Under the pieces are notes generated by a model. The model had not been told where the DNA came from and ran no database searches. It saw only the letters and a program-made list of their open reading frames with translations. 64,000 nucleotides of DNA from Arthrobacter koreensis (GTDB lineage: Bacteria; Actinomycetota; Actinomycetes; Actinomycetales; Micrococcaceae). Of this stretch, positions 1 through 21,593 are shown piece after piece (position 1 is the stretch's first letter; each line of letters begins with the position of its first letter). The position numbers and the translations under genes were made by a program. The stretch covers positions 930,001 to 994,000 of the forward strand of contig NZ_WACG01000001.1 of NCBI RefSeq assembly GCF_009193255.1, written 5' to 3'.

Positions 1-695
1 TGGACGCCGCGGAACTCCGCGAGTCGGCCCTCGCGGCCTACCGCGCGGGGTGGCCGATCGCCATGCACGCCATTGGCGACGCTGCAGTGGATCACGCCAT
101 CAGCATCATTGTTGAGGCCCAGGAATCCTACGGACCCAACTGTTTCCCCAACCGGATCGAGCATGGCGGCGTGGTCCGGCCGGAACAGCTGGACCGGATT
201 GCGGAGGCGGGAATCGTCCTGGTTCCGCAGCCGCACTTCATCACTGAATTCGGCGACGGCATGGCCGAACTGCTTGGCCCTGCCCGCACCGGGCTTTCCT
301 ACCCGGCTGCCGGACTGCTGCGCCGCGGCGCCGTCCTGCCGGGCAGTTCCGACCGTCCGGTTTCCAACGGTCGGCCGCTGGATGTCATGCAGTCCTTCGT
401 GGAACGGCTGACTCCTGCGGGTATGGCGTACGGGCCCGCGGAACGGATCACCGCCGAGCAGGCTCTGGCGGCCTACACCACCGGCTCCGCTGCAGCCACC
501 GGTACGTCCCGGGAAAAGGGAAGCCTCTCCCCCGGGCTCCTCGCGGACCTGGTTTTCCTGGACCAGGATCCCACGACTGTTGATTCCTCCCGGATCGGGA
601 CCACCCGGGTTTTGGGCACCATGGTGGGCGGCGAACTCCGTTTTCTCCATCCGGACCTCCCCATTTTCCCCACTTCAGCGAAGGACAATCGATGA
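1..695 (+). CDS. Amidohydrolase, YtcJ-like (5' end outside window)
   Basis: About 230 C-terminal residues of a metal-dependent amidohydrolase are visible; the reading frame (codons from base 3) is open to the left edge. The motif HAIGDAAVD followed by RIEHGG is typical of the YtcJ/imidazolonepropionase-like branch and supplies metal-binding histidines. The end of the barrel (SSDRPV, then a TGSAAATG region) matches the usual C-terminus, where an acidic ligand and the small composite domain sit. The stop overlaps the start of the next gene (ATGA), so it is co-transcribed with an amidase, suggesting hydrolysis of an amide or carbamoyl compound. The substrate is unknown. I am sure of the superfamily, not of the reaction. 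Confidence 0.85.
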   Translation, partial: DAAELRESALAAYRAGWPIAMHAIGDAAVDHAISIIVEAQESYGPNCFPNRIEHGGVVRPEQLDRIAEAGIVLVPQPHFITEFGDGMAELLGPARTGLSYPAAGLLRRGAVLPGSSDRPVSNGRPLDVMQSFVERLTPAGMAYGPAERITAEQALAAYTTGSAAATGTSREKGSLSPGLLADLVFLDQDPTTVDSSRIGTTRVLGTMVGGELRFLHPDLPIFPTSAKDNR

Positions 696-1939
696 GCACC
701 AGCAACTCCAGTTTCCTGGCGGATTTCGCCGTCATGTCCAGCTTCGGCGCAACTGCGGGAGGCGGCGTCGACCGCCAGGCAGGAACACCGGAGGACCATG
801 CCGTCCGCGCCTGGTTCAGCACCTGGCTCGCTGAACACGGCCTCACCGAGGCCGTTGATTCGGCCGGCAACCAGTTCGGGCTGGTGGAACTCGTGCCCGG
901 AGCGCCGTGGGTCCTGCTCGGCTCGCACCTTGATTCGCAGCCGCTGGCCGGACGGTACGACGGCGCTTACGGAGTACTGGCGGCCGCTCACGCAGTGGTT
1001 CGGGCAGCAGCCGCCGCGGAGGCAGGTGAACTGGCCCCGGCCTTCAACCTTGCAGTAGTGAACTGGTTCAATGAGGAAGGCAGCCGCTTCACCCCCAGCA
1101 TGATGGGCAGCGGCGTCTTCACGGGAAAGCTGTCCCTTGAAACAGCCCGTGCCACCGCGGACCTGGCCGGCACCACCGTGGCCGAGGCACTGGGCAGTCC
1201 GTCCGCGGCGGGTACTGCCCCGGCCCTGGACTCCGTTGCGCGGTATGCCGAGATCCACATTGAGCAGGGCCGCATCCTCGAGGAAACCGGCACCCAGGTG
1301 GGCATCGTGGATAAGACCTGGGCAGCGGCGAAGTACCAGGTCACGGTGGACGGGGACCAGTCCCACACCGGGTCCACGCGGATGGTTGACCGGAGGGACG
1401 CCCTGTACGGAGCGGCGCTGGTCATCGCCGCCGCCCGGGACCTCACCGAAGAGTTCGAGCCGGGCCTGCTGCACAGTTCAGTGTCCCAGCTGCAGGTGCT
1501 GCCCAACTCTCCGGTGACGATCGCCCGCCAGGTGGTTATGAACCTGGACCTGCGTTCACCGGACGAATCCGTCCTCGCCCGCGCCATGGACCTGCTGGAC
1601 AAGCGCATTGCCGAAGCCGAGTCCCGGTCCCGGACCGGGGTCTCCCTGGCACTGACCCACCAGTGGGGCCTGAACCCTTACCAGCCGGCCGGCGTCCGGC
1701 TGGGCCGCGCCGCCGCAGACGCGCTGGGCTTCACTCACAGGGACATCATGACCGTGGCGGGGCACGACTCCACCAACCTCAAGGACCATGTCCCCACCGT
1801 GATGCTGTTCGTGCCCAGTGTGGAAGGCATCTCACACAACGAAGCCGAGTTCACCCGCGATGAGGACGCCGTGCGCGGCGTCGAGCTCCTCACCGAGGTG
1901 GCACTGCGCCTGGTTCGCGGAGATTCGGTGGAAGACTAG
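692..1939 (+). CDS. Hydantoinase/carbamoylase-family amidase (M20)
   Basis: The 415-residue product has the hallmarks of N-carbamoyl-amino-acid hydrolases and allantoate amidohydrolases. Near residue 73 GSHLDSQ and RYDGAYG give the first metal ligands, WFNEEGSRF gives the acidic pair, AEIHIEQG another histidine, and AGHDSTNL plus SHNEAEF the C-terminal ligands; SHTGSTRM lies in the dimerisation domain. Expected action is cytoplasmic cleavage of an N-carbamoyl or amide bond using two divalent metals. The start overlaps the upstream amidohydrolase stop by 4 bases, so translation is coupled. Alternatives within the family are ureidoglycolate or beta-ureidopropionate hydrolase, which motifs alone cannot separate. 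Confidence 0.88.
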   Translation: MSTSNSSFLADFAVMSSFGATAGGGVDRQAGTPEDHAVRAWFSTWLAEHGLTEAVDSAGNQFGLVELVPGAPWVLLGSHLDSQPLAGRYDGAYGVLAAAHAVVRAAAAAEAGELAPAFNLAVVNWFNEEGSRFTPSMMGSGVFTGKLSLETARATADLAGTTVAEALGSPSAAGTAPALDSVARYAEIHIEQGRILEETGTQVGIVDKTWAAAKYQVTVDGDQSHTGSTRMVDRRDALYGAALVIAAARDLTEEFEPGLLHSSVSQLQVLPNSPVTIARQVVMNLDLRSPDESVLARAMDLLDKRIAEAESRSRTGVSLALTHQWGLNPYQPAGVRLGRAAADALGFTHRDIMTVAGHDSTNLKDHVPTVMLFVPSVEGISHNEAEFTRDEDAVRGVELLTEVALRLVRGDSVED

Positions 1940-1945
1940 CCCGGC

Positions 1946-1980
1946 CCGGGCCCGGGTCCCTTCTGGGGCTCCGGGCCCGG
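1946..1980 (+). terminator. GC-rich hairpin after the amidase gene
   Basis: A perfect 10-bp stem (CCGGGCCCGG at 1946-1955 and again, self-complementary, at 1971-1980) starts 7 bases after the amidase stop. It has inner TCCC/GGGG pairing but no T-run. The right arm runs into the left 32-bp repeat at 1976. Confidence 0.55.
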
Positions 1981-2007
1981 CGCGTAGACTCGCAGGCACC
2001 GCCAGCG
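1976..2007 (+). repeat. Left copy of 32-bp direct repeat flanking an island
   Basis: These 32 bases, with the core TAGACTCGCAGGCACC, are identical to 14798-14829. This copy contains a -10-like TAGACT at 1985-1990 pointing right, but no gene on that strand follows it. It looks like an orphaned duplicate of the promoter region of the alpha-glucosidase gene now 12.8 kb away. The flavin reductase gene ends 9 bases to its right. Confidence 0.9.
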
Positions 2008-2015
2008 CCTCTGTC

Positions 2016-3164
2016 TCAGACCGCCCCGCCCCTGCTGGCGATGGCCAGCCGGGCAAAGTGCTTCGCCTGTTCCGTATAGGCGCGCACTGCGTCTATGGCA
2101 GCATCCGTTTCACCTGTCCGGAGAGCCTCCGCCAGCCGGCTCAGCTCTGCATGGTCCAGGAGATCCCGCCAATCCGTGTCATCCCACGCTTCGGTCCACA
2201 CTCCCGCGATGCTTAGCCTCCGGTAGGACTCAAGCAGCTGGGAGGACCCCGATGCCCGCACCAATGACTGGTGGAACCGGGAATGCAGCTCGAGGAAATC
2301 CCTCAACGATCCGTCTGCCGAGCAGCGGATGCCCTCCATGTCCTTTGTCAGCTGCAAGAGCGTCTCAAGCAGGCCTTCGTCGAATCCCTGTGCGCGGCTT
2401 GCGATGACACCAGCCTCGATCATGGCTCGTCCCTCGTAGAGTCCGTCACTAAGTTCCGCTGTTATTGGAGTGACATGGAAGGCGCCACTGTCCGAGCGGG
2501 ACACGAGTCCTTCGGTTGTGAGCTTCACCAATGAGTTGAAGACGTCATCAGGCTCCGCGCCGAGCGCCCTCACCAGGTTATGGATCTCCAGTTCGCCGCC
2601 GCTGGGCGTAGAGCGGGAGAGAACCCATCTCCGGACCTTCCGGTACGTATCCAGCTCACGGACGCTCTCAAGCCGTCCGAATGCTCCCCGATAGTAGGCC
2701 AGTGGATTACCTGATGCCGCACGGGCGTCCACAACCTGTCCGAAGAACACCGTGTGGCTTCCTCCCTGAGGCGCTTCCGTTACGACGCAGGTGATGGTCG
2801 CCAGCACGTCTTCCAGCACAGGTACGCCGTCATGCTCCGAGACCGTGTATCCGACACCGGAGAACTTGTCCGCACCTTTCCTGCCGAACCGCAGTGCCAG
2901 GTCTTCCTGGTGGTCGGCGAGGATGTTGATGACATAGATCCCTGCCGCCCTTACCGCGTCATGAGTGCTGCTGCTGCGGTTCAGGCACATCAGCATCATG
3001 GGCGGGTCCATGGACAGGGAACTCACGGCTGACGCCGTCGTACCGTACAGCCGGCCGTCATGCGACGTGGTGATAACTGTGACTCCGCTGGCGAAGTGCC
3101 CTACGACCCGCCGAAACATGTCCTGGTCAAATCCCGGTATGGGAAGCAGGTCCTGAGTGTTCAT
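2016..3164 (-). CDS. Flavin reductase fused to GntR/FCD-type module
   Basis: The 382-residue product joins two parts. Residues about 10-165 are a flavin reductase-like FMN-binding domain (FASGVTVITT, GTTASAVSSLS, PPMMLMCLN, GSHTVFFGQV) that should supply reduced FMN using NAD(P)H. Residues about 175-240 form a winged-helix region (LVRALGAEPDDVF, then TTEGLVSR) and the rest looks like an FCD ligand-binding domain of GntR regulators. I chose the ATG at 3164 because GGAGCT precedes it and it lies 4 bases after the upstream monooxygenase stop; a longer frame upstream has no support. It presumably serves the adjacent two-component monooxygenase and may also sense its own redox or ligand state. Confidence 0.85.
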   Translation of the reverse strand: MNTQDLLPIPGFDQDMFRRVVGHFASGVTVITTSHDGRLYGTTASAVSSLSMDPPMMLMCLNRSSSTHDAVRAAGIYVINILADHQEDLALRFGRKGADKFSGVGYTVSEHDGVPVLEDVLATITCVVTEAPQGGSHTVFFGQVVDARAASGNPLAYYRGAFGRLESVRELDTYRKVRRWVLSRSTPSGGELEIHNLVRALGAEPDDVFNSLVKLTTEGLVSRSDSGAFHVTPITAELSDGLYEGRAMIEAGVIASRAQGFDEGLLETLLQLTKDMEGIRCSADGSLRDFLELHSRFHQSLVRASGSSQLLESYRRLSIAGVWTEAWDDTDWRDLLDHAELSRLAEALRTGETDAAIDAVRAYTEQAKHFARLAIASRGGAV

Positions 3165-3168
3165 CCCG

Positions 3169-4497
3169 TTAGCTCCACTCAGTCGAAGGCCGGTCGAGCT
3201 TAAGGTTTTCCCGCAACGTCGATCCTTCGTACTCGCTGCGGAAGTACCCCCGTTCCTGGAGCGCCGGAACCAGCTTCCGGCAGATCGCCTCAAATCCTCC
3301 CGGGTTGAAGGGAGAGTTCAGATTGAAACCGTCGCACGCTTCGGAGGTGAACCAGTCGATCATGACTTCGGCCACCTGGTCCGCTGTGCCGACCATCCAC
3401 ATGTGGCCGGTGGAGCGGGCGCGGTCCACAATCAATTCCCGTAGCGTCATCCCCTCTTCCACACTCTTTCGCCGGAAAATCTGGTAACGGCTGCCCATGG
3501 CCGGGTCGTCTGAGAAGCGCTCCGCCGGAATCTGTTCGTCGAACCCAATATCGTCCAAACGAATCTTCAGATCACCGCCGATTTGCCTGCGTCCTGCGTC
3601 GAGGTCCAGCAGGCCGGCCAACTCATCGGCCAGGCCCTGCGCCTCAGCAACCGTATCGGCAATGATGGGCAGGATCCCGGGAATGATCTTGACCGAGTCT
3701 GCCTTCCTGCCGCGGCTCTCTGCCAAGGAGCGCATCCTGGCGTAGAAGTCCTGGGCAAGATTCTTGCGAGGCTGCGCGGTGTAGATAACGTCTGCTACGG
3801 ATGACCCCAAGTCCATTCCTGGGCCCGAGGAACCTGCCTGGACCAGTACCGGACGGCCCTGCGGTGGTCTTGGCATGTTGATCGGGCCTTCGACCGTGAA
3901 GTATCTGCCTTCGTGATGGATCCTGCGCAGGCGCGCTGAGTCCACCCACCGCCCGTTCTCCCGGTCGGCCATGACGGCGTCGTCCGCCCAGCTGTCCCAG
4001 AGCCTGGTCACGACGTCGACGAACTCCGTGGCCCGCTCATACCGCTGGACGGGGTCCGGTGCTTCCCCTCCCCCGAAGTTGGAGAAACCGTCCTTTGATG
4101 TCACGATGTTCCACCCCGCACGACCGCCGGACATGTGGTCCAGGCCCGCGAACTGGCGGGCTGCGTTGTATGGCTCTGCAAAGGAGGTTGACATCGTGCC
4201 GATGAGGCCGATGTTGCTGGTCCGCGCCGCCAAAGCGGAAAGAACACTGATGGGTTCGTAGAACCCGTTCATCATGATGTCGTCACGGAAAAGGTTGTTT
4301 GCGTGGACGATGTCCCCGAAGAAGACCGCATCCAGCTTCGCTTCCTCGGCCATCTGCGTCAGGTCCGCGACGAAATCGAGGTTCCCCAGTTCCTCGGCCC
4401 GGCTTCCGGGCCTCCGCCACGCGTCCCGGTGGTACCCCGCCGGGAGCATAAAGGTCGTCAGCACCATATGGTCCGGTTGCATGTTCTTTTGGCTCAT
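3169..4497 (-). CDS. LLM-class FMN-dependent monooxygenase (NtaA/SnaA/DszA-type)
   Basis: This 442-residue protein fits the long flavin-dependent monooxygenases that use free reduced FMN from a partner reductase. FMLPAGYHRDAWRRPG at the N-terminus, DAVFFGDIVH, RTSNIGLIGTMSTSF, GRAGWNIVTS and a long middle insertion are typical of the nitrilotriacetate/EDTA/dibenzothiophene-sulfone branch. Members cleave C-N or C-S bonds or hydroxylate nearby carbons with O2. The gene sits 2 bases after the hydrolase stop and 4 bases before the flavin reductase start, so reductase and oxygenase are made together. The true substrate cannot be read from sequence; candidates are tertiary amines, sulfones or related xenobiotics. 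Confidence 0.9.
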   Translation of the reverse strand: MSQKNMQPDHMVLTTFMLPAGYHRDAWRRPGSRAEELGNLDFVADLTQMAEEAKLDAVFFGDIVHANNLFRDDIMMNGFYEPISVLSALAARTSNIGLIGTMSTSFAEPYNAARQFAGLDHMSGGRAGWNIVTSKDGFSNFGGGEAPDPVQRYERATEFVDVVTRLWDSWADDAVMADRENGRWVDSARLRRIHHEGRYFTVEGPINMPRPPQGRPVLVQAGSSGPGMDLGSSVADVIYTAQPRKNLAQDFYARMRSLAESRGRKADSVKIIPGILPIIADTVAEAQGLADELAGLLDLDAGRRQIGGDLKIRLDDIGFDEQIPAERFSDDPAMGSRYQIFRRKSVEEGMTLRELIVDRARSTGHMWMVGTADQVAEVMIDWFTSEACDGFNLNSPFNPGGFEAICRKLVPALQERGYFRSEYEGSTLRENLKLDRPSTEWS

Positions 4498-4499
4498 GG

Positions 4500-6209
4500 C
4501 TACACCTCATCGTTGGTTGGTTGCGGGGATGGGTTCGCGCTGCCCTGCGCGGGTTGGAAAAGTGGTAGGGCCAGGTAGGTCTCAGCGCCCGGCCCACTGT
4601 GCACGGTCCAGGTGCCCTTGTTCCTCAGGTCCGCATGCCTGATGACCGGAGAGTTTAGATCCGGGTCCCGGTGGACAAAGTCGTGGCCCAGAATGGAGAG
4701 CACCAGTTTCTCCCCTTGGTCGAAGTGCACCCCGGAGGGCCAGACTTCGACATCCAGGGCCCGGGGCTCGCCGGGGATCAGCGGTTCCTCTGCAAGGTGC
4801 AGGTGCACGGGCCGCAGCTCGGTGGACCGTTCTTCATCCAGCGGCTGATGGCTGGCGCGCAGCCATCCCAGCGCGACGGGACCGTCGTCGAATAGCGCAT
4901 TAAAGGCGAACCGCACTTCGGCGCCGTCTCGCGCGAACTTCCGAACCGCCACGAAGATATCCGCATCCTCTGCATCGTTGGCCCGCAGGAAAAGCCGAAG
5001 CCGCATCGGGCCCACCAGGTCGGCCGGTTCCTGGAAGACGTACTCCAGGTCCAGACTCTCCGCCATCGGGTCGAAGGTGACCTGGCTTGATGCAGCCGGC
5101 GCCGGGGTAGCAAGTGTGCGTTCCTCCAGCCCTGCGTACAGGCGCACGGCTTGTGTATCGGGAACCGGCCAGAAAATGTCGCTGCGGATGCGCATGGTTT
5201 CCGCGGTATCCAGGACTTCCAACTGCACCTGCGGCCAGGAGAGCGGTCCCGGACCGTTGTCGAGGAGGTAGTAATCGAAGAACACCCGTTGGGCTTCCAC
5301 ATTCTCCGGGTCGTAGAAGTATCGCCACTTCTTCTGCCCATGGACCCTGAGCCATTTTTGCGGTGAGGACATCTGTGCGAAAGCCTCCAAGGTGCCGCGG
5401 GTGTGGAGTCCGTGATCGCTCCAGCTCGCCACCACGAAGGCTGGGACCTGGATGTCTCTCAGGTCGGGGTATCGGCTCTTGTAGTAGTCCGACATCAGCG
5501 GGTTGGCTGCCACGTTGGCCGCCGTGTCTTCCGTCGAGGCGAGCGAATAGCGCATGTTCCGTGAGGCACGGGGAATGAATCCCGTCTCTGGAATTCCCCC
5601 GTGATAACAGAACTCCCGGTACCAGTCGGAGAAGCACTCCCATGGACTGATGGCTTTCAGGGATGGCGGCTGCATGGCACCGGCGATGTACTGGATACCA
5701 GCCAGGTAGGAGACGCCCAGCATACCGACGCGGCCGTTGGACCAGTCCGCTCCGCCCAGCCACTCAATGGCGTCGTAGACGTCCTCGGCTTCCTGCGGTC
5801 CGTTGTGGACGCCGTTGCCCTCCGAATGCCACATGCCGCGGGGATCCACATACGCCACGGCATATCCGTTGCGGCACCAGTACCGGGGATCAGGTGCTTC
5901 GAAGCCCGTCAGCGGTGACATCCAGCCGGCTTCGATCCCTGCGGAGGGCCAAAGCATGTCCTTCTGGTTGTGCTTGCCGTACGGCCCCCAGGCAAGGAGC
6001 ACCGGCAGGTCCCTGTCCATGCCGGCGGGACGGTAGATGTCGCCGTAGATGCGGATCCCGTCCCGCAGCGGGATGGCGGTGTTGCGTTCAACGGTGAGCC
6101 CGCCCAGGTCTTCAGTGACATGTTCGAGCGGTGGAAGCGGAGGCTTCCCCTCTGCAGTTGCCGGGTCGAGGCCGGGGCAGTTGATGGGCTGCATAGTCTG
6201 GATGTTCAT
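4500..6209 (-). CDS. CocE/NonD family serine hydrolase
   Basis: The 569-residue product resembles X-Pro dipeptidyl-peptidase-like S15 hydrolases such as cocaine esterase. The nucleophile elbow GVSYLAG places Ser near residue 167. LAWGPYGKH likely forms the oxyanion side, YVDPRGMWHSEG is a family signature, and the C-terminal third is the jelly-roll domain. No signal peptide is seen, so it acts in the cytoplasm. The ATG at 6209 has GAAGGA 4 bases upstream and lies 14 bases after the ATPase stop; the longer reading overlapping the ATPase is less likely. In this operon it may cleave an ester or amide after import, before monooxygenation. Acylase or peptidase activity is an alternative. Confidence 0.88.
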   Translation of the reverse strand: MNIQTMQPINCPGLDPATAEGKPPLPPLEHVTEDLGGLTVERNTAIPLRDGIRIYGDIYRPAGMDRDLPVLLAWGPYGKHNQKDMLWPSAGIEAGWMSPLTGFEAPDPRYWCRNGYAVAYVDPRGMWHSEGNGVHNGPQEAEDVYDAIEWLGGADWSNGRVGMLGVSYLAGIQYIAGAMQPPSLKAISPWECFSDWYREFCYHGGIPETGFIPRASRNMRYSLASTEDTAANVAANPLMSDYYKSRYPDLRDIQVPAFVVASWSDHGLHTRGTLEAFAQMSSPQKWLRVHGQKKWRYFYDPENVEAQRVFFDYYLLDNGPGPLSWPQVQLEVLDTAETMRIRSDIFWPVPDTQAVRLYAGLEERTLATPAPAASSQVTFDPMAESLDLEYVFQEPADLVGPMRLRLFLRANDAEDADIFVAVRKFARDGAEVRFAFNALFDDGPVALGWLRASHQPLDEERSTELRPVHLHLAEEPLIPGEPRALDVEVWPSGVHFDQGEKLVLSILGHDFVHRDPDLNSPVIRHADLRNKGTWTVHSGPGAETYLALPLFQPAQGSANPSPQPTNDEV

Positions 6210-6223
6210 GGGGTCCTTCACGG

Positions 6224-7312
6224 CTAACGGTCCAGGATGACGAGTGATTCGGATGGCACCCACAGCTGGACACTGGTTCCCCCAAGCCGGTATGAATCGG
6301 CGTTGATGGCCGCATCTGGTACGGCTACCGTGATGCTGCGGTTTCCTGGAAGATCCACGATGACCGTCCGGGCCTCCGCTGAGAACGAGGCATCCCGGAT
6401 CCGCCCTGCCCCGGCCAGGCCCGGCTGTGCGGTTTCACCCAGGACGACGTCGGAGCTGCGGAAGGCTGCGAAGGATCCGGGTACGGTGCGGCTGGCCAGC
6501 TCGCTGGACGTCGTCCTGAGACCGCCCTCGAAGGTCGCTTCCGGAGCCCCGGATTCCTGCGTGATGCCCCGGCATTCCAGGATGTTCTCGAACCCGACGA
6601 AATCTGCAGCAAAACGGGAAACAGGTCGCCGCTGGACCTCCGAGGGGGTCCCGACCTGCTCGATCACGCCGTCCCGCATGATGATGACCCGGTCCGAGAG
6701 GGCGAGGGCCTCGTCCTGGTCATGGGTGACGTAGAGCGAGGTGTTCCCGAACTCGTCGTGCAGCCGCCGTATCTCGCTGCGCATCGCAATTCGCAGCTTG
6801 GCATCAAGGTTGGAGAGGGGCTCGTCGAAGAGCATGACTCCCTTGGCGGAGACCAGCCCCCGGGCCAGTGCAACGCGCTGCTGCTGGCCGCCGGAGAGCT
6901 CATGGGGGTAACGCTTGGCATGGGAACCCATGCCAACGGCTTCGAGGCTCGTGGCTACGCGTTCGCGGAGCTCTGCTGCCGGGGTCTTGCGGCGCTTCAG
7001 GGGGTACGCAACATTCGCGGCCACGGACATGTGCGGCCATAGGGCGTAGCTCTGGAAGACCATTCCCACTTTGCGCTTATGCGGCGGAACCATGGTCCTG
7101 GTCTCGGCATTGACGAACTCATGGCCGTCGACGGCGATGCTTCCGTGGTCCGGTGACTCCAACCCGGCGACGCAGCGTAGGGTGGTCGTCTTGCCGCAGC
7201 CGCTGGGACCGAGGAGGGTAATGAACTCGCCGGACTCAATGGAGAGGTTCAGATCCTTGAGGATCTGGTTGCCGTTGAAGGCCTTGCTGACTGAACTGAT
7301 GTTGATGCGCAT
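6224..7312 (-). CDS. ABC transporter ATP-binding protein (FbpC/PotA-type)
   Basis: The 362-residue ATPase has Walker A GPSGCGKT at residues 35-42, Q-loop glutamine near 87, signature LSGGQ at 139-143 and Walker B VMLFDE at 159-164. The roughly 120-residue C-terminal extension is consistent with a TOBE-like regulatory domain, as in iron(III), spermidine and phosphonate importers. It energises the fused permease encoded 27 bases upstream and ends 14 bases before the hydrolase gene. The neighbours are catabolic, so import of an organic substrate seems likelier than free iron. Function as an importer ATPase is nearly certain; the substrate is not. Confidence 0.93.
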   Translation of the reverse strand: MRINISSVSKAFNGNQILKDLNLSIESGEFITLLGPSGCGKTTTLRCVAGLESPDHGSIAVDGHEFVNAETRTMVPPHKRKVGMVFQSYALWPHMSVAANVAYPLKRRKTPAAELRERVATSLEAVGMGSHAKRYPHELSGGQQQRVALARGLVSAKGVMLFDEPLSNLDAKLRIAMRSEIRRLHDEFGNTSLYVTHDQDEALALSDRVIIMRDGVIEQVGTPSEVQRRPVSRFAADFVGFENILECRGITQESGAPEATFEGGLRTTSSELASRTVPGSFAAFRSSDVVLGETAQPGLAGAGRIRDASFSAEARTVIVDLPGNRSITVAVPDAAINADSYRLGGTSVQLWVPSESLVILDR

Positions 7313-7339
7313 GGTTTGTCCTCGTTCGGTTGGGAGTTC

Positions 7340-9145
7340 CTAGCGGCTTCGGGCCAACTGCTGGGCAGGGCCGGCGCTCTCGGTCGTGGGATCCGGCCCC
7401 ACGGGATCCTGCAGGTCCGCCGGCGTCCCCCCGCCAGGCCCTTTCCCGGCCCTTTGCTCCGGCCGGGTCAGTGCCAGCAGGCGGCCGGCGAGGTAGGCGG
7501 TGCCGGCCACGACGAGGAAGCTCGCGATGAGCAGCAGGGCAGCCGCCGCGGCGATCGGGGCTTTTCCTTCCACGTAGCGGCTGTAGATCTGCACAGATAG
7601 ATAGTCGGCGCCCGCGGTCGAAAGCAGGAGCGGGATGGAGAGCACACCACTGATGACCACGAAGCAGAGCAACCAGCCGCTGACGAGGCTGGGCAGCATC
7701 AGGCGGATGATGATGTCCCAGATCGCACGGTACTTGGAGGCACCGGAGACCCAGGCCGCTTCTTCCAGCGACTTCGGTATCTGTGCCATCGCCGCGGTGG
7801 CGGTCCGGCTTGCCAGCGGGATCGTCGCCACGAACAGCGCAAAGACCATCAGGACCGGTGTCCCGTAGAACGTGGAGAGGAACGGCAGGCCCAGGAACAG
7901 CCAGAGCACACCGAGTGCCAGGATGAGCCCCGGCATTGCCAGCCCCAGCCACTGGCTGTATTCGATGAACCGGGACAGCACCCCACCCTTGAAACGTGCA
8001 GCCCAGGCGAAGGCCGTGGCCGCCAACACAGCGAGCAAAGCTCCCAGCATGGCGGTTCCCATGGTGTTCCAGTACCCGGAGACCATCCGGCGGTTAGTCA
8101 GTACTTCTTCATAGTTGTCGAAGGAGAAGCCCTCGCTGGCGCCCAGGAACGGGGAGAGCGACACACGGATCAGTTGAACCATTGGAAGGATGATCGTGAT
8201 GGCTGCGAAGCCCAGCACGAGTGCGGAAAACAGCCAGCGCCATGGACCGATGTCCCGGCGCAGGGCCCGCGATTCCTTCCCTCCGATGGTGACGAAGGAC
8301 CGGCGCCCGAGGACCTTGATCTGGATGAACACGAGCACCATCAGCACCACCATGAGGAGCACGGAAATGCTGCTGGCCTGCGCGAAAAGCGGGCCGGTCG
8401 AATTGGACAAATAGGCGTAGATCTCGGTGGGAATCACGAAGATGCCCGCGGGTACGCCCAGGATCTGTGGCGCATCGAAGGATTCCAGGAAGAGGACGAA
8501 GCCCAGGATCATGGCGCCGGTGATGGCCGGAGCCATGATCGGGAGTTCGATCTGGAAGAACGTCCTGACCGGCCCCGCACCGCTGAGCCGGGCTGCTTCG
8601 TCAAGGGAACGATCCATGGCCAGGAACGGGCCCAGCAGCAGGAAGAACTGCAGCGCGATTAGGCGCAGGGAGGAGACGAACACAATCCCCCACCAGGACT
8701 CCATATTGAAGATCCGTCCGGCTTCACCGAAAGCTCCGGTCATCAGCTGGTTCAACAGACCGACGTTCTGGTTTCCGAGCAGGCCCCAGGCGATCGCAAA
8801 GAACAGGCCCGGCGTGGCAATGACAATGAACATGATGACCGGGATGGCCTGCCGGAAGACCGTGTTCGTCTTGGCGTAGATAGTGGCGAAGAGCAACGCG
8901 AAGAAGGTCGACAGCACGATCGTCGCCAGGCCCATCAGCACTGTCTGGATTATGACTGAATGGGTGTCTGTAGAGCGCAGCACTTCCCAGAACATTTCCG
9001 CGGTGTAGGAGCCGCTGGAACCGAACATCTGTGTCTTGAAGGCACCCTGGACCACCATGGTGGCGGGGCCGACGAAACAGACGAAACAGACGATCGCAAT
9101 GACCCACTGGGGGTTGCCGGTAAAGGCCCTCCACCCTTTCAGCAT
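7340..9145 (-). CDS. ABC transporter fused permease (FbpB-type)
   Basis: This 601-residue membrane protein carries two tandem MetI-like permease halves, about 12 membrane segments in all. Each half has an EAA-type loop: DEAARLSGAGPVRTF in the first half and EEAAWVSGASKYRAI in the second. The double-length layout is typical of iron(III) and 2-aminoethylphosphonate importers. The ATG at 9145 overlaps the SnoaL-like gene by 7 bases. The C-terminal tail after the last helix is hydrophilic and proline/glycine-rich. A short VCFVCFVG repeat in the first helix comes from a 9-base tandem repeat near 9072. With the lipoprotein and the ATPase it completes one import system. Confidence 0.92.
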   Translation of the reverse strand: MLKGWRAFTGNPQWVIAIVCFVCFVGPATMVVQGAFKTQMFGSSGSYTAEMFWEVLRSTDTHSVIIQTVLMGLATIVLSTFFALLFATIYAKTNTVFRQAIPVIMFIVIATPGLFFAIAWGLLGNQNVGLLNQLMTGAFGEAGRIFNMESWWGIVFVSSLRLIALQFFLLLGPFLAMDRSLDEAARLSGAGPVRTFFQIELPIMAPAITGAMILGFVLFLESFDAPQILGVPAGIFVIPTEIYAYLSNSTGPLFAQASSISVLLMVVLMVLVFIQIKVLGRRSFVTIGGKESRALRRDIGPWRWLFSALVLGFAAITIILPMVQLIRVSLSPFLGASEGFSFDNYEEVLTNRRMVSGYWNTMGTAMLGALLAVLAATAFAWAARFKGGVLSRFIEYSQWLGLAMPGLILALGVLWLFLGLPFLSTFYGTPVLMVFALFVATIPLASRTATAAMAQIPKSLEEAAWVSGASKYRAIWDIIIRLMLPSLVSGWLLCFVVISGVLSIPLLLSTAGADYLSVQIYSRYVEGKAPIAAAAALLLIASFLVVAGTAYLAGRLLALTRPEQRAGKGPGGGTPADLQDPVGPDPTTESAGPAQQLARSR

Positions 9146-9699
9146 TGCAGGGGCTCCCGCTCAGTATCCGTCTGACGGTAACCTCCTCCGATAACCTCGC
9201 CCTCCCGGAGGCTGGCGAGGTCATCGTCGGAGTCCGGACGCAGCACCCGGAACCACAGGTCCTTGATCTTCCACTCACCGTCGACCCGGACGTAGCGGCA
9301 CTTGTATTTGCCCTCCGACCACGGACCCCAGACGCGCATCATTCCAAACGAGGTCCGGAAGTCGCACTGCATCCTGTGCCAGGTCCATTCGCCGTACGCC
9401 GTGTCACCGGACACGGTGATCGACGGAGAGGAGAGAATGTACGCGTCCTGGCTTTTGACGACGTCGGCCAGATCCGCCTGGAACATCCCCGCGATGGCGT
9501 CCCGGCCCTTATGGACTCCATGGTGACGTATGTCGCACACGGCGTCCTCGGCGTAGGCACGGGCAACGCCCGCCCAGTTCCGGTCCCCAAGGTCACGAAC
9601 GTACTGCTGCTGCAGCTTCTCGATGGCCTTGACCGATTCGAGTGCATCGATCCTGCGGCGAAGGTTGGCGAGTTCCTCCGCGAGTTCTGTGTCATTCAC
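9139..9699 (-). CDS. SnoaL/NTF2-like protein
   Basis: The 186-residue protein begins with a short coiled helix (ELANLRRRIDALESVKAIEKLQQQY) and then a single NTF2/SnoaL-like cone fold, with RDLGDRNWAGVARAYAEDAVCDIRHHGVHKGRDAI typical of the SnoaL_4 group. Such domains are either small dehydratases/isomerases or binding subunits. The start is a GTG at 9699 with AAAGG upstream. It is wedged between the binding-protein and permease genes and overlaps the latter by 7 bases, an unusual place for a non-transport gene, so it is probably an enzyme for the same substrate. No secretion signal is seen. The exact reaction is unknown. Confidence 0.8.
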   Translation of the reverse strand: MNDTELAEELANLRRRIDALESVKAIEKLQQQYVRDLGDRNWAGVARAYAEDAVCDIRHHGVHKGRDAIAGMFQADLADVVKSQDAYILSSPSITVSGDTAYGEWTWHRMQCDFRTSFGMMRVWGPWSEGKYKCRYVRVDGEWKIKDLWFRVLRPDSDDDLASLREGEVIGGGYRQTDTEREPLQC

Positions 9700-9737
9700 T
9701 AGGTGCTGCCTTTCCCATCAAGCCGGTGGAGCCGGAG

Positions 9738-10877
9738 CTAATTTGCGGTGATCGACTTGAAGAGGTCGCCGTATTCGGTCATCTTCTCCCGCATCACGGT
9801 TTGTGCAGGGAGTTCGACGAATGCAGCGTCTTCGAGCTTGGGCCATCCGTGAGGGGACTCGAGGGAGTCGTGCTGGTTGATCGGGAAGTTGCCCGACTCA
9901 AGGGTCAATTCCTGGGCTTCCGCGGTGAAAAGGAAGTTCAGCAGGAGCTTTCCCGCGTCGCTGGAGGGCGCATTGGCGGCCAGCATCCATTTCTCGGTGG
10001 CAATGACGTTGTTCTCATCGAAGAACTGAACCTCAACCGGCGCGCCGTCCTCCTTGGCGTTCAGGACGGAAATGGTGGCGGACAGGGGCTGATAGGCGAA
10101 TTCTCCGGCACTGATGGATTGGAGGGCCAACTGGTCCTGCGCGACGATTTTCGCGTTGGCTCCGACACTCCGCAGCCATGCCTCGTCAACGGCGCCGGCC
10201 TGAAGGAGGGCAGTCGAAACGGTCATGGTCCCACCGGGGGTTGAGGGCGTCATGAAGGTGAGTTTGCCGGCCCACTCCTCACCGGCCAGATCGGCCCAGG
10301 ACCCGGGCAGATCTGATTCGTCGAGCAGGTTCGTGTTGTAGGACGACGCGAACATCAGTGCCCAGGGCGAATGGTAAAAGCCCTTCGGGTCTGCGATCTG
10401 GTCCTCGCTGATACGGCCGTCGATCCAGGCGGGCAGCTCGAAGGTGGCCGGCTGATACTTCTCGGCGAACCCCTGTTCGGCGTACCGGTCCGCGTTGGGG
10501 TTGGAAAGGACGTCGACAACGTGGTTTCCGCTCTGGCGCTCCGCTTCCAGCGTTGTCTGCAGCTCGGCGCCGACGTAGGTCTGCGGGTCGACGGTGAGGC
10601 CAGGGAACCGCTCTTCGAATGCGGCGTAGATCCCCAGAAACTCATCGTGGTGGCCTGCGTAGATGGTCACCTCCGTGTCGCCTGACTCAATCGCGGCGTC
10701 GTACAGCGTCTGGAGCTCTTCCTCCTGGGCGCTCTGAATACCGAGGGGACCGAGATCCAGCTCGCCGGAGCCCTGGGCAGAGTCGGCGCCGGCGCAGCCG
10801 GATAGGGCAAGGCTGCCGGCTGCGAGGCCGGCAATGACGGCGAGGGGAAGTTTGGTGATCCTGAAGTTCAGCTTCAT
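9738..10877 (-). CDS. ABC transporter substrate-binding lipoprotein (iron/polyamine type)
   Basis: The 379-residue product has a lipoprotein signal: basic start, hydrophobic run and lipobox LSGC with Cys at residue 28. The mature part looks like a class of periplasmic binding proteins for iron(III), putrescine or 2-aminoethylphosphonate (EVTIYAGHHDEFLGIYAAFEERFPGLTV, then DVLSNPNADRYAEQG). The ATG at 10877 has GAAGGA about 7 bases upstream; a longer frame upstream runs into the promoter region. It is the first gene of the leftward operon, so its promoter drives transport and catabolic genes together. The conserved iron-binding tyrosine pair is not obvious, which fits an organic ligand. Confidence 0.9.
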   Translation of the reverse strand: MKLNFRITKLPLAVIAGLAAGSLALSGCAGADSAQGSGELDLGPLGIQSAQEEELQTLYDAAIESGDTEVTIYAGHHDEFLGIYAAFEERFPGLTVDPQTYVGAELQTTLEAERQSGNHVVDVLSNPNADRYAEQGFAEKYQPATFELPAWIDGRISEDQIADPKGFYHSPWALMFASSYNTNLLDESDLPGSWADLAGEEWAGKLTFMTPSTPGGTMTVSTALLQAGAVDEAWLRSVGANAKIVAQDQLALQSISAGEFAYQPLSATISVLNAKEDGAPVEVQFFDENNVIATEKWMLAANAPSSDAGKLLLNFLFTAEAQELTLESGNFPINQHDSLESPHGWPKLEDAAFVELPAQTVMREKMTEYGDLFKSITAN

Positions 10878-10997
10878 TGATGTTTCCTTCGTTTCACAAC
10901 CGGGGGAAGGCTGTGGCGGACACTGTGGTCCTGGCTCCACGCGATGGGGCCTGGACACCACCATTGAGCCAGCACCGTCCAGATATAGTCAATAGGT

Positions 10998-11013
10998 ATA
11001 CATAAATAAGTAT
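10998..11013. promoter_or_regulatory. 16-bp inverted repeat, candidate operator
   Basis: ATACATAAATAAGTAT has symmetric halves ATAC-n-TA / TA-n-GTAT. It lies in the AT-rich middle of the divergent gap, where a repressor could block both promoters. Confidence 0.45.
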
Positions 11014-11040
11014 GATTGACGTCACATTTGAATCGCTTTA

Positions 11041-11053
11041 GTGTTGTAAACAC
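11041..11053. promoter_or_regulatory. GTGTT-N3-AACAC inverted repeat, candidate operator
   Basis: Perfect 5-bp arms with a 3-base centre lie 122 bases before the GMC oxidoreductase start. Size and symmetry suit a small dimeric regulator such as MarR, but no direct evidence links it to one. Confidence 0.4.
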
Positions 11054-11174
11054 GGCATAGACTCGTCTCCGAAGACCACAAATCTAGTTTATATTCGTTC
11101 TATATTGAGCACAGCTGCGTTCGATTGAGCGTGTTTGCCGCGACTACGAAAGCGATCCGTCGGGAGGCCGAAGA

Positions 11175-12734
11175 ATGCCAGCTTGGAACTACATCATCGT
11201 GGGGGGCGGAAGCGCCGGCGCAGTGCTTGCCGCCCGCCTGTCGGAGGACCCGAAGTGCAGCGTCCTGTTGCTGGAAGCCGGCCCCGACTACCGGGCCGCG
11301 GACACTCCGAAAGAGTTCCGGGACCGGACAAAGGGACTCGGACTGGCACTGGAGGCACCTCGGAACGACCTCAACCCGGACTTTTACTGGCAGGGAATCA
11401 CCGCCACCAGGGCGGCCGGCCAGCAACCCTTCCCCTACCGGCGCGGCCGTGGCCTGGGCGGCAGCTCAACCGTGAACGGCCTGTATGCCATCCGCGGCGT
11501 CCCTGACGATTTCGTGGAATGGGAACGGCTGGGGGCGGTGGGTTGGAGCCCGGAAACTATGCTCGCCGCCTACTGCCGCATTGAGGACGAGCATGACTTT
11601 CCGCGGTCGCCCCACCACGGCAAGGATGGTCCGACGCCGGTCTACCGCGAGCCCGAAGCTGGCTGGGGCGGCGTCGACCGCGCGCTGCGGGCTGCAGCAA
11701 TGGACGCGGGCCATCCATGGCAACCGGACCACAACGAGCCACGGGCCACCGGCGTCTCGCCGATGGCCATGAACATCCGGAACGGGCAGCGGGTCGGTAC
11801 CAACCACGCCTACATCGATCCTGCACGGGGCCGTCCTAACCTCACCATCCGTGGCGGTGTCCTCGCGGATCGAGTCACCTTTGAAGGAACGACGGCCACG
11901 GGTGTGGTGGACGCCGACGGCGCCGTGCATGGGCTCCTACACGGCGGCGAGGTCATCCTCTCCGCCGGATCATGCGGCTCGCCAGCCATCCTGATGCGCT
12001 CGGGAATTGGAAGGGTGGAGGACCTGGCCGAGGCAGGAGTCCGCCAGGTCGCGGATCTACCTGTCGGCCGTGGTGCGCAGGACCACGCCGTCACTTTCGT
12101 TGAACTGCCGGTGCGTCCCGAGGCCCAGACCTGCGTGGCAAACCGGCCAACGAACGTGGTTCTGCGTTACAGCTCCGGATTTCCCGGCAGCAGGACGAAC
12201 GACATGATGATCATGGCCACCAACCACAACTACTGGTTCGGGAAGGAGACGGCGGGCCTGGCAGTGTCGCTGGAACAGCCCCTCTCCCGTGGGCGGATGT
12301 TGCTCCGGTCAGCCGATCCGCACGCCGATCCCCATTTCGAACTCAACCTGCTCTCCGATCCGCTCGACATGGCCCGGGTCAAGGACGGACTGGACCGTGC
12401 ACGGCGGCTGATGGAGCACCAGGCGTTCCAGAGTATCGCCACCGGACCCGCCACCTGGCCGCGGGACGATGGCGAAATACAAGCTTCCGTCAAGGACACT
12501 ATGCATCTCACCAGCACGGTGCGGATGGGAGACCGGGAGAGCCCTGACACCGTAGTTGATCCGCAGTGCCGGGTACTCGGAATGGAAGGGCTGCGGGTCG
12601 TGGATGCCTCCATCATGCCCACCGTCGTCAGTGCAAACACCTACCTGACCGTCCTGGCACTGGCAGACGAATTTACTCAGCGGCTCCTGCGGGAGCGCGA
12701 CACCCTAGCCACTGCATACGAAGGACGGGCCTGA
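11175..12734 (+). CDS. GMC-family FAD-dependent alcohol oxidoreductase
   Basis: The 519-residue flavoprotein starts with the FAD-binding fold YIIVGGGSAGAVLAARL followed by LLLEAGPDY, has the GMC signature GRGLGGSSTVNG near residue 100, and ends with the catalytic region MHLTSTVRMG and VSANTYLTVLALAD, supplying the His and Asn that abstract the substrate proton. It should oxidise a primary alcohol (choline-, polyethylene-glycol- or aryl-alcohol-like) to an aldehyde. GGGAGG stands 7 bases before the ATG. The stop overlaps the aldehyde dehydrogenase start by 1 base, so the aldehyde is probably passed straight on. Choline dehydrogenase is one option, but no other betaine gene is in the operon. 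Confidence 0.92.
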   Translation: MPAWNYIIVGGGSAGAVLAARLSEDPKCSVLLLEAGPDYRAADTPKEFRDRTKGLGLALEAPRNDLNPDFYWQGITATRAAGQQPFPYRRGRGLGGSSTVNGLYAIRGVPDDFVEWERLGAVGWSPETMLAAYCRIEDEHDFPRSPHHGKDGPTPVYREPEAGWGGVDRALRAAAMDAGHPWQPDHNEPRATGVSPMAMNIRNGQRVGTNHAYIDPARGRPNLTIRGGVLADRVTFEGTTATGVVDADGAVHGLLHGGEVILSAGSCGSPAILMRSGIGRVEDLAEAGVRQVADLPVGRGAQDHAVTFVELPVRPEAQTCVANRPTNVVLRYSSGFPGSRTNDMMIMATNHNYWFGKETAGLAVSLEQPLSRGRMLLRSADPHADPHFELNLLSDPLDMARVKDGLDRARRLMEHQAFQSIATGPATWPRDDGEIQASVKDTMHLTSTVRMGDRESPDTVVDPQCRVLGMEGLRVVDASIMPTVVSANTYLTVLALADEFTQRLLRERDTLATAYEGRA

Positions 12735-14200
12735 TGCCGGATTTGAGCACCACTGGTCTCCACGACCTCGCAGCTTCCATCGCCGCCGACGCGCGGCACC
12801 TCATCGGCGGGAACCTCCAGAAGGGGACCGTTCACGCCGATGTATCAGCTCCCTGGGACCGACGCTTGAAGGTCAGCTACACCCAGACGGGACTGGATGA
12901 CCTGGCCGCGGCAGTATCCGCCGCCCACACCGCCCGTCAGGGCGGCCGCTGGCACCGGTCCCAGGCGAGGAACTGCCTGCTCACCTTGGCGGACCTTCTC
13001 GCAGCAGAGCAAGACGTCTTCATCGGACTCATCTGCTTCGAGAATGGAAAGCTGGAATCGGCGGCCCGGGGCGAGGTCCTCGGGGCTATAGCAGGACTCC
13101 GGTACTGGGCGGAACAGGCGCCGTCCGAATCTGTCGTAACCCGCACGGAGGCCCGGCTGACCCGCCTGACCCGGGACCCGCTGGGCGTGGTGGCAGCTAT
13201 CACGCCGTTCAATATGCCGCTGCTCATGATGGTCAACAAGATTGGAGCGGCATTGGCTGCCGGCAACACGGTCGTGTGCAAGCCCTCACCTGACACACCT
13301 CTTTCCGCACTGCACTTTGCCCGGCTGGCAGCCGGTGCCGTCCCGGCGGGCGTGCTCAATATCTTGGCAGGGGGACCGGAAACCGGCCCCGCTCTCACCG
13401 CCAGCCCGGAGGTCAGCATGGTCTCATTCACTGGAAGCATCGAGACCGGCAAGGCGATCATGGCTGCTGCTGCGCCGACCATGAAACGACTCCAGCTGGA
13501 ATTGGGGGGAAACGATCCGGCCATCGTGTGCAGGGACGCCAATGTTTCCGACGTCGCCGTGAACATTTTCCGTTCCGCATTCGGCTCCGCCGGACAAGCC
13601 TGCGTTGCCGTCAAAAGGGTCTATGTCCACGAGGACCTCCACGACGAGCTCGCCGAGGAACTGGCAGCACTGTCTGCTCGAGCTGTTCCGGGCAGACCCT
13701 TCTCCGAGGACGCCACCATGCCTGCCCTGACGACCAGGCGACAGCTAGATCACCTGCGATGGCTGGCCGAGGACTCCCGGAAGCGCGGCGGAAAGTTCAT
13801 CCATACAGGCGCGATTGACGACACGGTAGGCAACTTCGCCTCACCATCGATCGTTACCGGCCTCACCGACGGGGCCCCGTTGGTGGATGGGGAACAGTTC
13901 AGTCCTATACTTCCCCTTGTCCCCTTTTCCGACGTCGATCCCGTCGTTGATAACGTCAACGCGGGCCGTTTTGGCCTAGGCGCCACGGTCTGGACCGAAG
14001 ACACGGAGCGAGCCGACCGCATCGCAGAAAGACTGGAGACTGGCATGATCTGGGTCAACGCACTCCCGCATCCAGACCCTACGGTTCCCTTCGGCGGAGC
14101 AAGGGAGAGTGGCCTGGGGCGTGAGGGTGGACAGGGCGGATTGGACGAGTTCACTGAAGTGAAATGTACTACCTTCAACTCAAAGGAAGCCCAACGATGA
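12734..14200 (+). CDS. NAD(P)-dependent aldehyde dehydrogenase
   Basis: The 488-residue enzyme carries all aldehyde dehydrogenase landmarks: TPFNMP with the oxyanion Asn near residue 160, FTGSIETGK for cofactor binding, LELGG with general base Glu near 256, and catalytic Cys in GSAGQACVA near 290. The start ATG shares one base with the GMC stop (TGATG), arguing strongly against the longer upstream frame. It should oxidise the aldehyde from the GMC enzyme to an acid in the cytoplasm. The stop overlaps the MarR start (ATGA). Length and motifs are normal for the benzaldehyde/succinate-semialdehyde type, but the natural substrate is unknown. Confidence 0.93.
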   Translation: MPDLSTTGLHDLAASIAADARHLIGGNLQKGTVHADVSAPWDRRLKVSYTQTGLDDLAAAVSAAHTARQGGRWHRSQARNCLLTLADLLAAEQDVFIGLICFENGKLESAARGEVLGAIAGLRYWAEQAPSESVVTRTEARLTRLTRDPLGVVAAITPFNMPLLMMVNKIGAALAAGNTVVCKPSPDTPLSALHFARLAAGAVPAGVLNILAGGPETGPALTASPEVSMVSFTGSIETGKAIMAAAAPTMKRLQLELGGNDPAIVCRDANVSDVAVNIFRSAFGSAGQACVAVKRVYVHEDLHDELAEELAALSARAVPGRPFSEDATMPALTTRRQLDHLRWLAEDSRKRGGKFIHTGAIDDTVGNFASPSIVTGLTDGAPLVDGEQFSPILPLVPFSDVDPVVDNVNAGRFGLGATVWTEDTERADRIAERLETGMIWVNALPHPDPTVPFGGARESGLGREGGQGGLDEFTEVKCTTFNSKEAQR

Positions 14201-14769
14201 GCAGCCCTGAGCACGGCAGGACCAGCATCGGTTCGGCAGGCGAACACCGTCACCCGACGGGGGGCGGCCGGTTCGAATCCTTCGTAGACGCCGCAGTGAC
14301 CAGGGCTGAGTCCACCCTCGAGTTCGAAGACCCTATGGTGCTGAAGCTGAGCCTGATGCTTCGGAAGGTAAACCAGCTGATGACGGATGATGCCAACCGC
14401 CAGGTCCATCAGGCTGAAGGATGGACGCAGGCCAGTTTCAGGGTGTGCTTCGGGCTTTGGGTCGCAGGCCCCATGCCGCCGCATCTGATAGCGGCAACGA
14501 CCAATATGAGTCGGGCAAGCGTCTCCGCCGCCATCAAGAAAATCGAAGAAGACGGGCTCATTAGCCGCGAACCGTCCCCTGTCGATCAGCGCTCAACAGT
14601 CTTGCGACTAACTGACGCGGGCGAACAGGCGGTGATCAGGACCTACCAATCCCACATCGCTCTGGAACACCATTGGCTTGAGCCGCTCAATGAGACGGAA
14701 CGGCTCATGCTCTTTCTACTCCTGAGAAAACTCCTCACAGGACCAGCAGCTTCCGAAGGCCGAAGCTGA
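14197..14769 (+). CDS. MarR-family transcriptional regulator
   Basis: The 190-residue protein has a MarR winged helix: LIAATTNMSRASVSAAIKKIEEDGLISRE is the helix-turn-helix and PVDQRSTVLRLTDAG the wing. Long N- and C-terminal helices for dimerisation flank it. It overlaps the aldehyde dehydrogenase stop by 4 bases and is the last gene of the rightward island operon, so it likely controls the island and its own operon through the divergent region at 10878-11174. The inducer would be the island substrate or a pathway product. The first 35 residues are polar and poorly conserved-looking. Family assignment is firm; the target sites are inferred. Confidence 0.9.
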   Translation: MSSPEHGRTSIGSAGEHRHPTGGGRFESFVDAAVTRAESTLEFEDPMVLKLSLMLRKVNQLMTDDANRQVHQAEGWTQASFRVCFGLWVAGPMPPHLIAATTNMSRASVSAAIKKIEEDGLISREPSPVDQRSTVLRLTDAGEQAVIRTYQSHIALEHHWLEPLNETERLMLFLLLRKLLTGPAASEGRS

Positions 14770-14787
14770 TCGCCGCAGCAGCGGTGA

Positions 14788-14802
14788 CCGGGACAATCCC
14801 GG
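14788..14802 (+). terminator. Short hairpin after the island MarR gene
   Basis: CCGGGA-CAA-TCCCGG forms a perfect 6-bp stem 18 bases after the MarR stop. Its right arm is partly the start of the right 32-bp repeat, as happens with the hairpin at the left repeat. It is short and lacks a T-run, so termination may be weak. Confidence 0.4.
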
Positions 14803-14829
14803 CGCGTAGACTCGCAGGCACCGCCAGCG
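14798..14829 (+). repeat. Right copy of 32-bp direct repeat, with glucosidase promoter
   Basis: Identical to 1976-2007. TAGACT at 14807-14812 is a plausible -10; transcription would begin near 14819, giving a short leader with AGAGGA before the glucosidase ATG at 14845. This copy therefore sits in its functional place, and the left copy is the orphan. Confidence 0.9.
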
Positions 14830-14844
14830 AGAGGAAACCCGGCC

Positions 14845-16545: not shown

Positions 16546-16571
16546 CGTCAGTTCTCAGCACACCTTTGGGT

Positions 16572-16592
16572 ATTTCGTTGACGAAATCAACG
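16572..16592. promoter_or_regulatory. Nested inverted repeats, candidate operator before importer genes
   Basis: ATTTCG-N4-CGAAAT (16572-16587) is a perfect 6-4-6 inverted repeat; a second one, CGTTG-N7-CAACG (16576-16592), overlaps it. A -35-like TTGACG (16579-16584) lies inside, so a bound repressor would cover it. The half-sites match those of the palindrome at 35442-35459. Confidence 0.55.
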
Positions 16593-16679
16593 ATTGATGA
16601 TTCAGTGTGACCTCCGCCATATCCGCCTCGTTTTTCTGCTCTCTACCGATAGGCCACAGTTCTACCGGCTTTCGATCAA

Positions 16680-16694
16680 GTAAGTGTTGCTTAC
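16680..16694. promoter_or_regulatory. GTAAG-N5-CTTAC inverted repeat before phnD-like gene
   Basis: Perfect 5-bp arms around a 5-base centre, 64 bases before the binding-protein start and inside its probable leader or promoter. It could be a second operator. Confidence 0.35.
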
Positions 16695-16758
16695 ATTCAA
16701 ATGGGCCGGGCATGGCGGCCCGCACCGTTCAGGCACAACCAGAGGATCAGAGTCGATC

Positions 16759-17751: not shown

Positions 17752-17771
17752 CAACGGTGCAGGAGCCAAGC

Positions 17772-20290: not shown

Positions 20291-20291
20291 A

Positions 20292-21581: not shown

Positions 21582-21593
21582 CAGAATCGACCC

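Follow-up and report, generated by a model that had tools for sequence, protein, structure and literature searches.

Accessory islands bounded by direct repeats are a known kind of element in bacteria, and such repeats are commonly taken for attachment (att) sites and then serve to identify integrase islands. The closest described systems are the integrative and conjugative elements (ICEs), the integrative and mobilizable elements (IMEs), and the cis-mobilizable elements (CIMEs). According to PMC5704250, these att-bounded islands carry accessory cargo between exact end repeats, the repeat is present as a single copy in empty sites, and the end of the target gene is restored upon insertion. The same source gives a range of 8–60 bp for tyrosine-recombinase att repeats, places tyrosine-recombinase IMEs at the 3′ ends and, more rarely, at the 5′ ends of protein genes, and describes CIMEs as elements that keep attL and attR and have lost the genes for integration and transfer. 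Repeat-bounded segments are also reported from other settings. In Haloquadratum walsbyi, strain-specific segments are bounded by a direct repeat of which the other strain has one copy only; most of these indels are described as deletions, and the repeats are usually shorter than 20 bp (PMC3119063). Direct repeats flank 10–18% of the small variable segments in three bacterial species, where they are possible deletion scars (PMC2884548). Target duplications of 16–28 bp are reported for the IS1202 group of transposable elements (PMC10132070). In human cells without active SAMHD1, the resynthesis of overhangs left by nickases generates duplications, and other genomic or plasmid DNA is inserted at the junctions (PMC7969033). 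Here I report on a stretch of 64,000 nucleotides from Arthrobacter koreensis (assembly GCF_009193255.1, contig NZ_WACG01000001.1, positions 930,001 to 994,000; hereafter the window), in which a 12.8-kb block of ten catabolic genes is inserted between an amidase gene and a glucosidase gene and is flanked by two perfect copies of a 32-bp sequence. The block is ordinary in kind and unusual in detail: no recombinase was found among its ten proteins, and the repeat matches the recipient lineage's own allele of the target.

The inserted block spans positions 2008–14797 of the window (12,790 bp). Its left repeat copy lies at 1976–2007 and its right copy at 14798–14829 (none of the three features is assigned a strand); the copies are identical at 32/32 positions, and their starts are 12,822 bp apart, which bears out the coordinates and the identity given by a first-pass annotation of this DNA. 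The pair is the sole exact repeat of at least 32 bp in the window, and the longest exact repeat was 15–19 bp when the window was simulated 20 times with an order-3 Markov model. Exact direct-repeat pairs of at least 20 bp with a spacing of 1–45 kb number 12 in 884 kb of the chromosome (words with more than six copies were excluded), the 32-bp pair being the longest. A chance repeat, the probability of which the annotation had called negligible, is ruled out by the simulations together with this count. Allowing up to three mismatches, the 32-mer occurs at only two places in the whole 3.55-Mb genome and in only two of 395 family genomes, namely twice in A. koreensis and once in its nearest relative, G005. 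A dispersed repeat, the alternative for which a genome-wide search had been proposed, is thereby ruled out. In single-strand DNA folds, both copies begin within the 3′ arm of a stem and the arm takes in the first letters of the repeat, in agreement with an earlier remark on a hairpin.

Is the site occupied in related species? The genus was represented by 29 genomes, A. koreensis (G000) included, with one genome per species. The amidase region was found in 7/29 of them, A. koreensis included; G010 has the amidase at another place, and the remaining five have it beside the glucosidase gene. In these five (G005, G023, G017, G018, and G006), the order is amidase, a single copy of the site, and glucosidase, and the block is absent. 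Thus, the site is empty in 5/5 relatives that keep the amidase-glucosidase junction, and none of them carries the block there. This is the ancestral order that the first-pass annotation had proposed, with the block put in at the repeat, and its suggestion of aligning relatives across the junction yielded the expected one-copy sites. When 59 genomes, A. koreensis included, were searched with the DNA of the glucosidase region, homology to seven relatives was seen to start at the right repeat (window 14797–14804). Two of the relatives, G024 and G025, have another upstream neighbour of the glucosidase gene and were left out of the empty-site count. When both flanks are joined through one repeat copy, they align with G005 across the site. 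Without gaps, the site is identical to the 32-mer at 32/32 positions in G005, 27/32 in G023, 27/32 in G017, 23/32 in G006, and 22/32 in G018. Since the nearest relative holds the same 32 letters once, the alignment shows an insertion by which 32 bp were duplicated exactly and no base was lost.

The direction of the event is also given by phylogeny. In the glucosidase tree (11 rows), A. koreensis groups with G005, G023, and G017, and G018 and G006 (with G025) form a separate clade; the placement of A. koreensis beside G023/G017 has a support of 83/84 only, and the amidase tree (six rows) leaves A. koreensis, G005, and G023/G017 unresolved. Under either branching, the five others being empty, one gain stands against at least three identical and precise losses. 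Thus, the event was an insertion and not a deletion; a repeat-mediated deletion in the relatives is ruled against by the tree, by which the block is not ancestral.

The block has no visible enzyme for its own insertion. The ten genes take up 12,459 of its 12,790 bases, and the family searches revealed neither a recombinase nor a transposase among the ten proteins (these searches took in the ten genes, and not the shorter ORFs), in accordance with the earlier claim that no integrase or transposase lies inside. Only 8 bp on the left and 28 bp on the right separate the stop codons of the end genes from the repeats. The G+C content is 0.627 for the block and 0.654 for the window. The same ten genes, in the same order and with the same end genes, were found in Nesterenkonia haasae Hz 6-5 (G219, L075/L085), the proteins being 39–69% identical. 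Since N. haasae carries the ten genes in order, the unit seems to have arrived as a complete and pre-assembled module. The surroundings differ in N. haasae, and a sequence resembling the 32-mer was looked for at its block ends and rejected, the best matches there being 16/32 and 19/32.

Elsewhere, the unit is rarely seen. With window 7000–12000 as the query, the 28 other genus genomes gave short matches only, mainly to the ABC ATPase gene, and the unit as a set was seen in none of them. A whole-block query matched 66/395 family genomes (A. koreensis included) at E of 1e-30 or better; ten other genus genomes matched single genes, chiefly the ABC ATPase gene, with the monooxygenase gene matched in G003 and G017, and among the matches listed only N. 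haasae has the set in order. N. haasae was also the only relative found when 84,980 species genomes were scanned with patterns from the permease alignment, a scan that uses two short peptide patterns and can miss others (a single-protein scan missed even N. haasae). In a class-wide sample of 394 genomes, A. koreensis included, a relative of the permease at E of 1e-100 or better occurs in three genomes of another family; the 20 kb around these three permeases hold the permease, a binding protein, an ATPase, and distant aldehyde dehydrogenases, and the unit is not there. A plasmid carrier of the block was rejected at "near" sensitivity, where 27 plasmid records each cover 2% of it at most, all in the ABC-ATPase stretch, and a phage carrier was rejected as no phage matched at the same sensitivity. 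The uptake and oxidation unit is compact, complete, and apparently rare.

Where did the second copy of the 32 bp come from? The leader drifts, and both copies have the variant found in the recipient lineage (32/32 in G005 and 22–27/32 elsewhere); a duplication of the target is therefore favoured over an imported att core, and it is inferred from the sequence comparison that the 32 bp came from the target itself and not from the att core of a donor. The explanation that I favour, at a little less than an even chance, is that after the split from G005 the block was captured at a staggered break, with the recipient's own 32-bp target being copied. In this scenario, a ready-made ten-gene unit would have entered between the amidase and glucosidase genes after the lineage had split from G005. 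The duplication would go back to a double-strand break, the ends of which were offset by about 32 nt, or to a template switch returning 32 bp upstream; the staggered ends would then have been filled in, doubling 32 bp of the recipient target, and the foreign segment would have been joined between the filled ends, probably by Ku/LigD end joining. The end-joining capture described for staggered breaks in PMC7969033 is alike in having a perfect target duplication around foreign DNA, no loss of bases, and no recombinase. It differs in that the duplication here is 32 bp long and surrounds a 12.8-kb bacterial unit, and in that the bacterial case is inferred and not observed. Ku was found in 29/29 genus genomes, and the A. 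koreensis genome has two LigD-polymerase (ligD_pol) matches over the cut-off.

Several points weigh against capture at a staggered break. A stagger of 32 nt is long for bacterial end joining. A comparison of large indels with G005 over the chromosome part C5 130–986 kb is also unfavourable. In plus-strand chained pieces of at least 300 bp, 743.5 kb were aligned at 88.9% identity, and 29 indels of at least 800 bp opposite less than 300 bp were found, the extra DNA being in A. koreensis in 15 cases and in G005 in 14 (segments replaced on both sides were not counted). Exact repeats were sought within 80 bp of each edge. An end repeat of at least 20 bp was found in 3/29 indels, namely the catabolic block (32 bp), a transporter-gene segment (27 bp), and an integrase element (20 bp). 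Thus, of the large indels other than the block (28), the integrase element and the palindrome-flanked segment alone have end repeats longer than 12 bp; since the remaining 26/29 have end repeats of at most 12 bp, long duplications are not a habit of end joining here. Moreover, the integrase-bearing element left a repeat similar to that of the block in the same chromosome, and 32 bp falls in the range of tyrosine-recombinase att repeats (PMC5704250). Had a sister strain already carried the block at this site, a core brought in from there would match the recipient allele as well. The junction in a donor was not found. Among the titles and abstract openings listed by the literature searches, none dealt with a bacterial insertion with a long target duplication and without a recombinase; PMC7719229 treats the transfer of the end-joining genes themselves.

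Under a site-specific origin, the glucosidase leader would contain an att site at which a tyrosine-recombinase-type island entered, and the repeats would be attL and attR; the recombinase would either have worked in trans or, as in CIMEs, have been lost later. Like the CIMEs and the IME/ICE islands of PMC5704250, the locus has exact end repeats of suitable length, a single copy in empty sites, a restored gene end, and accessory cargo. Direct repeats at both ends with a single copy in the empty site are a feature of the att type, the A. koreensis genome has three tyrosine-recombinase and four serine-recombinase matches, and the 20-bp repeat of the integrase element likewise lies at a gene end. 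The one further insertion whose long repeat is not palindromic has an integrase, and 32 bp lies within the 8–60 bp range; a site-specific origin is therefore given some weight, although it is less likely than not. Unlike those islands, the block has no integrase among its ten proteins, between end genes that almost touch the repeats, and no sister element with the same att site was found. A second use of the 32-bp site (up to three mismatches) was not found in 393 other family genomes, and no viral contig holds the exact 32-mer. The search of plasmids for the 32-mer that had been suggested at the outset was run and revealed no carrier, since the site matched plasmids and phages only at chance level: each of the 26 plasmid records and the single phage record had E of 1 or more. 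Inverted arms for recombinase binding were no better than expected in the core: the best is 8/12, which was reached or exceeded by 229/300 shuffles. The site is poorly conserved, it is neither a tRNA nor a 3′ gene end, and its core is a lineage-specific allele that fits the nearest lineage only. Both a recombinase acting in trans and a circle integrated at short homology would require incoming DNA that carries the recipient's variant of this poorly conserved site.

A donor that already had this stretch could also have delivered the block by homologous or short-homology recombination; it would be either an island-bearing close sister strain or a circle that shares 32 bp with the site by chance. 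A sister strain would explain the identity with the recipient allele, and a single short-homology crossover of a circle would yield exactly this structure. I consider such a donor improbable: the first insertion is merely shifted to another strain, or a chance match of 32 bp is required; no such strain was found among the 28 other genus genomes, and the ends of the N. haasae block do not resemble the 32-mer. Still less credible is a transposable element that makes very long target duplications and has since lost its transposase, even though the IS1202 group comes near with its 16–28 bp (PMC10132070). The 32 bp exceed that range, no transposase was found among the ten proteins, and the ends of the block are ordinary gene ends. 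A transposon with terminal inverted repeats was rejected, as the local score of 10 for the outer 60 bp was equalled by 84/500 shuffles. It is equally hard to believe that the block is ancestral and that recombination between its 32-bp repeats removed it from the relatives. The indels of H. walsbyi (PMC3119063) and the possible deletion scars of PMC2884548 offer precedents, and the H. walsbyi segments share the strain-specific distribution and the repeat that is single in another strain. In contrast to those short-repeat and mostly deletion-derived indels, the block is an insertion by phylogeny with a 32-bp repeat. A. koreensis is nested among relatives with empty sites, so that the identical deletions counted above would be required; the right copy corresponds to the native leader of every one of these relatives, and the set is not seen in the 28 other genus genomes. 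Target copying at a staggered break is still the reading that I favour.

What does the inserted unit encode? The left gene run is on the minus strand. Its end gene (2016–3164, with the start set at an internal ATG, as the listed ORF extends to 3293) encodes a fusion of a flavin reductase domain with a GntR-type FCD domain (PF01613 and PF07729; 42% amino acid identity to N. haasae, the species to which all identities below refer), and its stop codon lies 8 bp inward of the left repeat. In N. haasae, the counterpart (L075 6965–8113) aligns through both parts, and the protein may possibly be an effector-gated reductase or a reductase-regulator fusion. It is followed by an NtaA/DmoA-type FMN-dependent monooxygenase gene (3169–4497; TIGR03860 above the cut-off; 66%) and a CocE/NonD-family hydrolase gene (4500–6263; TIGR00976 above the cut-off; closest solved chain 3ib3; 62%), the true start of which is probably near 6209, judging from the overlap with the next gene. 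Then come the genes for an ABC importer ATPase resembling PhnT2/PotA (6224–7312; below the equivalog cut-offs; 54%), a two-domain ABC permease resembling PhnU2 (7340–9145; below the cut-off; 69%), a SnoaL-like protein (9139–9699; PF13577; 64%), and an ABC substrate-binding protein (9738–10964; PF13343; 58%). The right gene run is on the plus strand and consists of the genes for a GMC oxidoreductase resembling choline dehydrogenase/MftG (11175–12734; below the cut-offs; 68%), an aldehyde dehydrogenase (12731–14200; PF00171; 48%), and a MarR-type regulator (14164–14769; weak NCBIfam MarR matches, all below the cut-off; 39%), the stop codon of which lies 28 bp inward of the right repeat. Between the divergent runs, the intergenic region (10965–11174) has a G+C content of 0.448, compared with 0.627 for the block, and a weak palindrome in it, ATAC...GTAT, could be a MarR operator. 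PDB and NCBIfam matches indicate monooxygenases of the NtaA/YtnJ type and a CocE/NonD hydrolase. The unit is best read as a predicted system for the uptake of a small compound and its two-component flavin monooxygenation, followed by hydrolysis and by alcohol and aldehyde oxidation, under control of the MarR/FCD type. A literature search turned up no described catabolic cluster with this gene set.

The host gene on the left encodes an M20-family amidase/peptidase (692–1939, plus strand; PF01546), which adjoins the glucosidase gene in the five block-free relatives. The left repeat copy keeps its native upstream context. The host gene on the right (14845–16545, plus strand) encodes a putative glucosidase, a name taken from the first-pass annotation. 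The right repeat copy contains a TAGACT motif and the start of the glucosidase leader. The annotation had taken TAGACT as a −10 element: the motif is indeed kept before the glucosidase gene in all seven relatives examined, and from this conservation it may be a promoter, but a sigma-70-type consensus scan of 1900–15000 found no promoter-like site. A TTCTGG stretch is present upstream of TAGACT in A. koreensis, G005, G023, and G017 and is missing in G018 and G006. The insertion splits TTCTGG from TAGACT, which may have had a side effect on the glucosidase gene; the right end of the block supplies GTGACC 17 bp before TAGACT. A tRNA or an Rfam RNA as the target was rejected, since there is no tRNA in the window and no Rfam match at the gathering score in 1–26000. 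That the site is not a tRNA gene thus stands; the earlier view that this is unusual for an integration site is softened by the use of protein gene ends described in PMC5704250.

Other variable segments were encountered in the course of this analysis. The 10.2-kb tyrosine-integrase element (G000:C5:570844-581067; L086 9845-20000 and beyond) is an ordinary integrase element with 20-bp direct repeats that are single in G005, and it sits at the 3′ end of a gene that I take to be YajQ-like. A 37-kb insertion relative to G005 (G000:C5:344110-381392; L144-L146) has a serine-recombinase match at C5:370218 and an end repeat of at most 12 bp, and is perhaps a prophage or a large integrative element. A 1.4-kb segment with a transporter-like gene (G000:C5:854696-856148; L111 4696-6148) is absent from G005. 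The 27-bp direct repeat at its ends is one half of a dispersed palindrome, which would fit the movement or removal of a single gene by recombination between such palindromes. The hairpin halves of this palindromic repeat are about 22–29 bp long, and members lie at window 51175–51194 and 57380–57399. Half-sites with up to two mismatches number 81 in A. koreensis, 77 in G005, 71 in G023, 50 in G017, 22 in G024, 5 in G004, 2 in G006, and 0 in the other 22/29 genus genomes; the repeat resembles a REP-like or terminator-like family that hardly occurs outside the clade of A. koreensis. In the window itself, a second variable segment (16545–24146) holds ORFs of an ABC transport system (binding protein, ATPase, and permease). 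It is present in G017 and G024 and absent between the glucosidase gene and the next gene in G005, G023, G018, G006, and G025, and no direct repeat above 7 bp was found in comparison with G005.

The combination of an empty site, an identical single copy in a close relative, and a lineage-specific allele makes it possible to ask whether a repeat came with an island or was copied from the host. It is a speculative proposal, and itself rather unlikely, that whole multi-gene catabolic units can be captured at staggered breaks by a recombinase-free route that doubles about 30 bp of the bacterium's own target, so that att sites are mimicked without any integrase ever having been involved. Because no recombinase was found in the block and the repeat matches the recipient's own allele, the mechanism is worth testing. 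If the repeat was copied from the host, break repair would have produced some of the islands that are now classed as having lost their integrase.

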